From: a virus
Virus record (IMG/VR): IMGVR_UViG_3300037071_001769
Coordinates: 1-20,699 of that record
Strand: one strand, 5' to 3'
DNA: 20,699 nt
Below the pieces are notes generated by a model. That model did not search any database. It was not told where the DNA came from and saw only the letters and a program-made list of their open reading frames with translations. Both the position numbers and the translations under genes were made by a program. Positions 192-2,519 of this stretch are shown one piece after another (the first letter of the stretch is position 1; each line of letters begins with the position of its first letter).

Positions 192-2047
192 GCGAGTGCC
201 TCCTTGAGTTCAGCCAGTGAGATCGAACGCAGCGCCTGCTGCGCATCAGCGTCCTTGGCGAGTAGCTTGCGGTGGATCAGCTCCTCGATCGTCTTACGAA
301 CAATCGGGATCTGCACGTTCACCGTTCCCTTCTGACCGATGCGGTGCGTGCGGTCTTCGGCTTGTCTGTTGATCGCTGGGGACCAGTCCCGACCGAGGAA
401 GATGACGTCGGATGCTGTCGTGAGATTGAACCCCTCGGCGATCTTCACTTGGCACAGGAAGATCTGATGCTGCTTGCCCTGGAACGCTTCAAGCATGTCG
501 TAGCGTTCGCCTGCCGGGATCGCGCCATTCATGAATGGTGCCTTGTAGACCTCGGCGAGGTATTGGAGCGGAGCGTTGAATCGCCCGAAGATCACCACTT
601 GGTGGCCGGTGCCGATGATCGTCTCGACCGTCTCACGGAGCCAGATGAGTTTGGGGTGCTTGGGGAAAACCAGTTCACCAGGACGTCCCTTGATCTTCTC
701 GGCGTGTTTGGCGATGAGCGGCGCCATCTTCTCCAGGTAGCCTTCAGGGATGCCGCCAAGGAAGCCTTGGGCGATCTGTTCAAGGCGCATGAAGGCTTGA
801 ACGAAGGAGTGCGCTTGGGGTTGAAAGAGGATGCCATCGACGGCTCCGTCTTCGGAGTTGTCGATCAGCTTCTCCAGCTCGATCGTCGCCCACTGCTTCA
901 TCTGGTCGTAGACCTTGCGGATGGGCCCATCGAACACGATCTGAGGGTAAGTGTGGATCTTTGGCGGCAGGTTCAGCACGTCTTCTTTCTTGCGCCTGAT
1001 CTGGTAGCAGTTGAGCACTTGGTTCAGCGTCTCTACGTTCTTCATGCCACGCACGACGTTGACCGGTCGCTTCATGTTGCCGAAGGACACTTGGCTCATC
1101 ACGGCATGCCTGTTCATGAAGTCGTGGTAGCTGACGTAGCAGCCAGGGGCCACGATCTCCAGCTGCGTCCACAGGTCCTCGATGGTGTTGCGAATCGGGG
1201 TGCCGGTGAGGAGAAGTCGGGCTGTTGCAGCCCGACTCAACTCCATCACCAGTTTGGTGCGTTCCGCCTTGCGCGATTTGACGTAGTGGGCTTCATCACA
1301 GATCAGCGCTTGTCCGTTGAGGTAGGTGCGCAGGGTTGCGATCTGAGTGGGGGGCAGCGCGATCAGCAAGTCGTAGTTGATGATGACGACACTGCTCTGG
1401 TCTTGGTCATGAAGGAAGGCGATGTCGGAGAAGATGTCCGCACGTTTCTTCGGTGTGCCATCGATCACGAAGCGAAGGCGCTTGTTGGCGTCGCCCAGTG
1501 TTGCGGTGACCTCATCGACCCAGTTCCACTTCACGGATGCTGGGCAGATGATGAGGATGCGGTTGAAGTCCTGCAGGGCCCACAGAGCGGTGGACGTCTT
1601 TCCAAGGCCCATGTCGTCCGCGAGGATGGCGCAGTGATCCATCAGCAGCAGCGCACGGATGGCTGCAAGCTGATGAGACATCGGCTGGCGCTCAGTGCTG
1701 TGATGGGTGTTTGCCGGCCTTGCGACATGAGCGGCGGTGACCGAGTCAACTAGCTCTCTTGCCTCCCTGTGTGCAGCCGTGTCCGACGTGTCCCAGGACA
1801 CCTTCAGCTCCTTGGTTTGGAAAAGCGGTAGCGCTGTGGAGGGGAGAAGCGGAGCGGTGTAGACCGAGCAGAGGGGGCCGTTGTGGATGCGTCCAGGCAG
1901 GTTGCTGCGTCGCCATCCAGGCCATGAGCTGATGATGCGATGCACGCGGTCTCCGCCTTGGGCGAGGCCACCATGGATGCTGAATCCAGGGTGATCGTCA
2001 GCAAGAGAGACGAGAATCGTGTCGGCTGAGGTTGGGGTGTGGGTCAT
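188..2047 (-). CDS. SNF2-type DEAH helicase/ATPase
   Basis: This 619-residue protein has the motifs of the SNF2 branch of superfamily 2 DNA translocases. Walker A is ADDMGLGKT at about residues 143-151, the Walker B/DEAH box is ICDEAH at about 249-254, motif III is LLLTGTP at about 278-284, and the C-terminal lobe ends with QAEDRTHRIGQ at about 562-572. Phage members are thought to remodel or unwind DNA during replication, recombination or transcription; the exact role here is not shown. I place the start at ATG 2047, because AAGGAG lies nine bases upstream and the codon overlaps the stop of the preceding gene as ATGA. The same frame stays open upstream through a repeat, giving a poly-Val/Gly stretch that I do not believe is translated. 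The N-terminal ~125 residues before the helicase core match nothing I recognise. Confidence 0.93.
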   Translation of the reverse strand: MTHTPTSADTILVSLADDHPGFSIHGGLAQGGDRVHRIISSWPGWRRSNLPGRIHNGPLCSVYTAPLLPSTALPLFQTKELKVSWDTSDTAAHREARELVDSVTAAHVARPANTHHSTERQPMSHQLAAIRALLLMDHCAILADDMGLGKTSTALWALQDFNRILIICPASVKWNWVDEVTATLGDANKRLRFVIDGTPKKRADIFSDIAFLHDQDQSSVVIINYDLLIALPPTQIATLRTYLNGQALICDEAHYVKSRKAERTKLVMELSRAATARLLLTGTPIRNTIEDLWTQLEIVAPGCYVSYHDFMNRHAVMSQVSFGNMKRPVNVVRGMKNVETLNQVLNCYQIRRKKEDVLNLPPKIHTYPQIVFDGPIRKVYDQMKQWATIELEKLIDNSEDGAVDGILFQPQAHSFVQAFMRLEQIAQGFLGGIPEGYLEKMAPLIAKHAEKIKGRPGELVFPKHPKLIWLRETVETIIGTGHQVVIFGRFNAPLQYLAEVYKAPFMNGAIPAGERYDMLEAFQGKQHQIFLCQVKIAEGFNLTTASDVIFLGRDWSPAINRQAEDRTHRIGQKGTVNVQIPIVRKTIEELIHRKLLAKDADAQQALRSISLAELKEALA

Positions 2048-2286
2048 CGAGAAGTGCTCCTTGAGGAGGACCCCAACCCCAACCACGACCGTGACCACGA
2101 CCGCGACCCCAACCCCAACCACGACCGTGACCACGACCGCGACCACGACCACGACCACCACCACGACCACGACCACGACCACGACCACGACCCCGACCAC
2201 GACCCCGACCCCGACCCCGACCGCGACCCCGACCACGACCACGACCACGATCGATCGAAGCCAACGCGGAGGATGGCGGCGGTCAT
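2044..2286 (-). CDS. Ser-X dipeptide-repeat protein, copy 2 (80 aa)
   Basis: This is a small, very basic protein with a 12-residue unique head (MTAAILRVGFDR). The rest is a strict alternation of Ser with Trp, Gly or Arg, ending SRSTSR. The head and tail match the neighbouring upstream gene (MNAALMRTGFDQ and SRSASR), so the two are tandem paralogues. AAGGAG lies nine bases before ATG 2286. That ATG overlaps the upstream paralogue's TGA as ATGA, and this gene's own TGA overlaps the helicase ATG in the same way. Occasional S-to-L, S-to-A or S-to-W replacements keep the two-residue phase. A strand with Ser on one face and Arg/Trp on the other is a reasonable guess; nucleic-acid or membrane binding is inference. 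Because all frames of the repeat are open, coding rests on starts, binding sites and paralogy. Confidence 0.6.
   Translation of the reverse strand: MTAAILRVGFDRSWSWSWSGSRSGSGSGSWSGSWSWSWSWSWWWSWSWSRSWSRSWLGLGSRSWSRSWLGLGSSSRSTSR
2069..2250. repeat. degenerate hexanucleotide repeat array A
   Basis: About 180 bp consist of a CGACCN-type six-base unit (plus strand), with N mostly A, C or G. The array includes two perfect adjacent 36-bp copies at 2071-2106 and 2107-2142, a sign of recent slippage or unequal exchange. All six frames are open within it. The unit length is two codons, so gain or loss of units preserves the reading frame of the Ser-X gene lying on the minus strand. Confidence 0.9.
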
Positions 2287-2519
2287 CTAGAAGCGCTCCT
2301 TGACCCCGACCCCGACCGCGACCACGACCGCGACCGCGACAGCGACCCCGCCCACGACAGCGACCACGACCACGACCACGACCGCGACTGCGACTGCGAC
2401 TGCGACCGCGACCACGACCGAGACCACGACCGCGACCACGACCTCGACCCCGACCGCGACCGCGACTGCGACCACGACCGCGACTGATCGAAGCCCGTGC
2501 GCATGAGGGCGGCGTTCAC
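2283..2519 (-). CDS. Ser-X dipeptide-repeat protein, copy 1 (78 aa)
   Basis: This paralogue of the next gene downstream starts with GTG at 2519, four bases from the stop of the upstream gene; an in-frame ATG at 2504 is an alternative. After the head MNAALMRTGFDQ, the chain alternates Ser with Arg, Trp, Gln, Gly or Leu and ends SRSASR. The head differs from copy 2 by conservative changes (N/T, L/I, M/L, T/V, Q/R), and one C-terminal Arg codon is AGA in one copy and CGA in the other. Both patterns fit selection on this frame. The GTG lacks a well-spaced ribosome binding site, so translation probably depends on coupling to the preceding gene. No similar family is known to me; function is unknown. 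Confidence 0.55.
   Translation of the reverse strand: MNAALMRTGFDQSRSWSQSRSRSGSRSWSRSWSRSWSRSQSQSQSRSWSWSWSLSWAGSLSRSRSWSRSGSGSRSASR
2300..2485. repeat. degenerate hexanucleotide repeat array B
   Basis: This second array has the same CGACCN-like six-base unit but different variants: more GCGACT and CGACAG, and a CCCGCC interruption. It is separated from array A by the unique end of one gene and the unique head of the next. The two arrays with their unique flanks form a tandem duplication of roughly 235-240 bp. Array B has diverged from A by base changes rather than by being an exact copy. Confidence 0.88.

Follow-up and report, generated by a model that had tools for sequence, protein, structure and literature searches.

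What do two adjacent viral genes built from a 6-bp repeat encode, and which of their neighbours belongs with them? The DNA analysed here, the window, is a stretch of 20,699 nucleotides comprising positions 1 to 20,699 of the IMG/VR record IMGVR_UViG_3300037071_001769. On its minus strand lie the tandem paralogous Ser-X genes of the original prediction: SX-B (2283..2519(−), 78 aa, delimited by its ORF and by conservation of head and position) and SX-A (2044..2286(−), 80 aa, delimited by its ORF and by the recurrence of tandem copies at other loci). SX-B reads from a GTG start through the head VNAALMRTGFDQ and a Ser-X array to SRSASR, and SX-A from an ATG start through MTAAILRVGFDR and its array to SRSTSR. 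The shared heads and tails, the ATGA junctions at B/A and at A/helicase, and the AGA/CGA difference at the final Arg, all reported earlier, are present. TCGNGG hexamers run through both genes (2082..2484(−)), the variable base being the first base of the X codon; this array, with a Tandem Repeats Finder score of 322 and a 6/12-bp period, is not a product of chance. The alternation, described as strict, is nearly so, with one WAGS break in SX-B and one WWW and two LGLG stretches in SX-A. A TCAAGGAGC site had been assigned to each unit, and both copies exist, but each is situated at the 3′ end of its copy and, judging from the sequence, would serve the next gene as a ribosome-binding-like site: the one within the end of SX-B (2295..2303(−)) serving SX-A, and the one within the end of SX-A (2056..2064(−)) serving the helicase.

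The array genes are enclosed by two others. Downstream, an SNF2-type helicase (188..2047(−); PF00176, E = 9e-35) has its ATG at 2047(−), overlapping the SX-A stop. ORF callers would lengthen this gene by 67 codons to a GTG start (188–2248(−)), in a Val-rich frame through the array; evidence from the family favours a start at the ATG rather than at the upstream GTG. Upstream, a gene encoding 101 aa (2521..2826(−)) ends 1 nt before the GTG start of SX-B. Elsewhere in the window are a near-perfect 25-bp tandem direct repeat (6254–6306; 2.1 copies, 92% matches) and, at 9222–15308, methyltransferase and glycosyltransferase-like genes among packaging genes. Hereafter, SX denotes the Ser-X repeat protein family and UP the gene directly upstream of it (~110 aa). 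Both the conserved gene at 2521–2826(−) and the presence of the SX family in other phages had been missed by the original prediction.

The first relatives were obtained with a degenerate DNA pattern spanning the last part of the head and the opening repeats, which returned four viral contigs; all four share this head and Ser-X chain, and three have a UP homologue immediately upstream. A scan for UP identified at least 79 viral loci, and a genome scan at least 10 more; these pattern-based counts are lower bounds, and the loci are related and so not independent. Where enough downstream sequence was available, an SX gene lies immediately 3′ of UP in 73 of 79 loci, its start overlapping the UP stop as ATGA in 44 of the 73 and in a TAATG-type arrangement in 12. 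The head follows the consensus M-N-[AQ]-A-[IV]-L-R-[TA]-G-[FY]-D-x-S, and a separate scan for the head alone again placed UP upstream of every first-copy gene with sufficient sequence. Tandem SX genes, two to six per locus, recur at L029, L034, L042, L060, L063, L069, L071, L096, L107, L113, L114 and L122. Four of these (L060, with the maximum of six, L107, L113 and L122) have four to six copies, with heads alike within a locus and arrays unlike. In L030 and L032 the entire UP–SX pair is doubled (228–856 and 1111–1556 in L030). The window, with two SX copies, is thus a typical case.

The constant neighbour of SX is UP, not the helicase. Coupling to the helicase, proposed from the window, was not borne out, as helicase relatives occur in only two other distinct contigs among the ~79 UP loci, and the helicase was rejected as the SX partner. 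As routes to relatives, the helicase led to only one distant viral locus and to far phage homologues, and TerL to 23 loci whose examined stretches contain neither UP nor SX. An SX gene stands almost always directly behind UP across many unrelated uncultivated phages. The surrounding genes are mainly those of replication and recombination (helicases, polymerases, RecT/Erf/Sak4 and exonucleases). Near the module there are also structural genes of differing phage types, with single matches to a Gp23-type capsid and to a P22-type portal, so that the module seems to cross phage lineages. The GenBank phage MW202573 carries the pair with both genes annotated as hypothetical proteins. L117 (also L142–L143) lies within a 649-kb Isosphaeraceae (planctomycete) contig that has a terminase gene ~12 kb distant and an anti-restriction gene, and the module there most likely sits in a prophage. 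A tblastn search found no UP in plasmids.

Array scans blind to UP were performed with seven units of TCGNGG or AGCNGG, each listing the first 120 stretches. Among the matches listed, UP or a gene of a second family, UP2, is present on the same strand no more than 1.5 kb upstream of 96 of 121 arrays with diverse N; for homogeneous arrays of these hexamers the count was 0 of 72 (Fisher p = 9e-32, with arrays counted as independent). Some SX genes have a different type of head (KQKYRS, among others), and these follow UP2. By hhalign the two upstream families are homologous (probability 95, E = 3.8e-8), and the head types of UP loci differ from those of UP2 loci. This tracking of head type with UP subfamily is consistent with docking of the head on UP, and part of it may reflect shared descent. 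A UP2 homologue is also found at 5449–5649 of MW202825.1, in a stretch without annotated features. The Ser-X arrays of three loci (L190, L209 and L246) follow different heads, and neither UP nor UP2 is recognisable there; they possibly point to further partner families. Many viral contigs (L261–L380) have homogeneous AGCNGG arrays (SRSRSR/SWSWSW) with no head and no UP; such arrays provide a control for slippage alone.

A survey of Ser codons in ~110 SX genes addresses the reading frame. The totals were TCG 1284, TCA 488, TCT 320, AGC 243, AGT 99 and TCC 35, with a single dominant codon in each array whose identity (TCG, TCA, TCT, AGC or AGT) varies by phage. The product of the +1 frame changes with that codon, from R-G (TCG) to H/Q-G (TCA), L-G (TCT), A-G (AGC) and V-G (AGT). 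Because only Ser-X is kept under all five dominant codons, the codon comparison identifies Ser-X as the selected, translated frame. The Arg-Gly frame, raised earlier as a caveat, and the Val frame were rejected as coding frames, their meaning shifting with the dominant Ser codon. The same comparison bears on whether the arrays function at the DNA or RNA level (as an origin, decoy sites or a regulatory RNA) or are mere slippage by-products with no protein function. Simple hexamer arrays do occur in viral contigs too, but the protein is kept while the Ser codon changes between phages, the heads and start overlaps are conserved, and UP accompanies none of the 72 homogeneous arrays among the matches listed, all of which makes this explanation highly improbable.

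Variation within the arrays is confined almost entirely to one base. Across 67 arrays, the mean entropies at hexamer positions 1–6 were 0.07, 0.12, 0.11, 1.53, 0.27 and 0.21 bits, and position 4, where the X codon (NGG) begins, is the only variable base in 65 of the 67. Changes at this base exchange Trp, Arg and Gly for one another; within arrays, the silent third base of the Ser codon is frozen. The X residues comprise 32% Arg, 27% Gly and 27% Trp, and the Trp:Arg:Gly ratio stays close to 1:1:1 from locus to locus while Arg codons drift. Dispersion between loci, taking one array per locus, was 1.23 for Trp, 1.65 for Arg (C+A) and 1.78 for Gly, close to binomial, whereas separate bases (C, 4.3; A, 6.6) and other pairings (T+C, 3.6; G+C, 3.5) were strongly over-dispersed. 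This pattern, low for amino acids and high for bases, indicates that amino-acid proportions are held while silent choices drift. Even loci with 94–97% identical UP DNA (L058/L059/L066 and L067/L077) have arrays in scrambled order, and R-R neighbours are rarer than in shuffled arrays (z = −4.5). Chain length and order thus change quickly and composition stays constant. From these sequence patterns, the arrays appear to turn over through slippage, with selection maintaining a mixed composition; less probably, a mutational bias at the base preceding GG lies behind the variation. A decoy array of PAMs (NGG) was rejected, the Ser codon side being constrained at the protein level, and a diversity-generating retroelement is not favoured, the variation extending beyond adenines.

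Rapid turnover of order and length, tandem paralogues, and frozen silent sites beside a diverse replacement site would also be expected of a hypervariable protein that serves as a decoy or in counter-defence and that host immunity selects to diversify. An arms race should alter composition, whereas that of SX is constant in unrelated phages, and defence-related genes are absent from the commonest neighbours of the module; we regard this account as improbable.

Structure prediction provided a candidate fold for UP. An AlphaFold2 model of the L030 homologue, built with 20 homologues, reached a pLDDT of 83.7 and consists of an N-terminal helix followed by a five-strand barrel of Sm type, in which a helical insertion separates strands 3 and 4. 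When this model was compared with the PDB by Foldseek, nearly all of the best 50 matches were Sm/LSm chains (E from 6e-4; TM-score 0.4–0.8 on the target and ~0.5 on the query), and a local Sm1-like stretch of UP is in register with LSm. By hhalign, UP and UP2 did not match four archaeal LSm proteins significantly (probabilities 0.3 and 4, respectively), and the LSM profile PF01423 has no match in the window genome. UP, including the copy in the window, is therefore described as a predicted small β-barrel that is Sm-like by fold, a description that draws on family alignments, viral loci, AlphaFold2 and Foldseek and does not claim membership in Sm/LSm. In BFVD, a structural neighbour is the DUF6948 protein A0A6J5MA76 (E = 3.4e-4); DUF6948 was rejected as a name for UP, as no UP member matches that Pfam model even at E ≤ 10. 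Among the proteins tested, no credible match was found for UP or SX in Pfam, PHROGs and NCBIfam, or for UP2 in Pfam and PHROGs. Serine-rich repeat adhesins (MSCRAMM type) were rejected for SX, the NCBIfam scores of 10–17 bits against cut-offs of at least 650 being low-complexity matches.

The AlphaFold2 model of SX, by contrast, has a pLDDT of 51, with no confident fold and no strands; the two-faced strand of the original prediction is a conjecture, and a low pLDDT alone is not proof of disorder. SX could be a β-structured chain that has Ser/Thr on one face and W/R/G on the other and stacks to form sheets or fibres, UP being its chaperone or cap. Such a chain would account for how nearly strict the alternation is (Ser at a median of 95% of alternating positions) and for divergent members, L046 and L113 among them, that have Thr in place of Ser. 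Gly at 27% to about one-third of X positions and the strandless model argue against it, and independence of order would be odd in a specific fold, so that we consider it unlikely. The net charge of SX (median +9) and its content of about 8 Trp per 70 aa raise another explanation, a cationic Trp/Arg-rich membrane-active peptide serving as a lysis aid or toxin, with UP as its antidote or carrier. The UP–SX arrangement, in which a small variable gene is overlapped by a small conserved one, is reminiscent of a toxin–antitoxin layout. SX has no hydrophobic stretch, however, and its surroundings are those of replication and recombination, lysis families being absent from its commonest neighbours; we consider this role improbable.

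Together, these results define a two-gene phage module, in which a conserved, predicted Sm-like UP is paired with an SX protein that combines a UP-subfamily-specific head and a Ser-[Trp/Arg/Gly] chain held in composition. The pair is probably a nucleic-acid-binding, self-associating system. In the mechanism that we propose, with a probability of roughly 0.4, SX is a disordered sticker–spacer chain that docks through its head on a nucleic-acid-binding UP ring and condenses nucleic acid or protein in early infection. UP would form a ring on RNA or single-stranded DNA, as other Sm proteins do, and the head would dock SX onto it. The chain, an unstructured polymer with Arg and Trp as stickers, Ser and Gly as spacers and a net charge of about +9, would then draw partner proteins together with nucleic acid to form a nucleoprotein condensate. 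Its function would depend on composition and not on order, with hexamer slippage renewing the array and selection retaining a balance of W, R and G. The constant composition and scrambled order of SX agree with a sticker–spacer chain; its strict alternation exceeds the regularity that such a chain needs.

The UP–SX pair appears to be undescribed, in line with the original prediction that no such phage family was known: the papers searched on the repeat, the motif and phage Sm or condensate proteins contained no account of it. More tentatively still, it may represent a widespread phage RNP or DNA–protein condensate system made of an Sm-like ring and a separate, quickly rewritten, composition-selected Ser-[W/R/G] polymer. 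That Ser-X is kept with differing Ser codons while its order is rewritten is unusually clean evidence for selection on composition over sequence, here in a natural low-complexity protein. With two small genes and many natural variants, the module offers a direct testbed for the rules of disordered or self-assembling proteins, and it may show how many uncultivated phages arrange early infection.

Several known systems share features with the pair. In RG/RGG and SR low-complexity tails and other sticker–spacer proteins, Arg and aromatic residues are spaced by Ser and Gly, and composition outweighs order. SX has the same residues and spacing, but it differs in its strict Ser-X alternation, in the use of Trp as the aromatic residue, in being phage-encoded and in consisting only of head and array. 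UP resembles the Sm/LSm/Hfq family (PF01423) in its predicted barrel and Sm1-like stretch, and departs from it in lacking a significant sequence match and in its helical insert; it similarly shares structure with DUF6948 phage proteins but not a match to their Pfam model. The nearest parallel, by analogy, is the Borg aaTR proteins, in which in-frame tandem repeats create disordered regions, some of them on Sm proteins (PMC9879509). Both cases involve fast-evolving in-frame DNA repeats on an extrachromosomal element, disordered products (predicted, for SX) and a link to Sm proteins. According to the description of Borg aaTRs (PMC9879509), these are perfect amino-acid repeats inside larger proteins, whereas in SX the X residue varies among W, R and G within arrays, and SX is a stand-alone phage protein with one diversified codon position, a constant W:R:G ratio and its Sm-like partner encoded by a separate gene.
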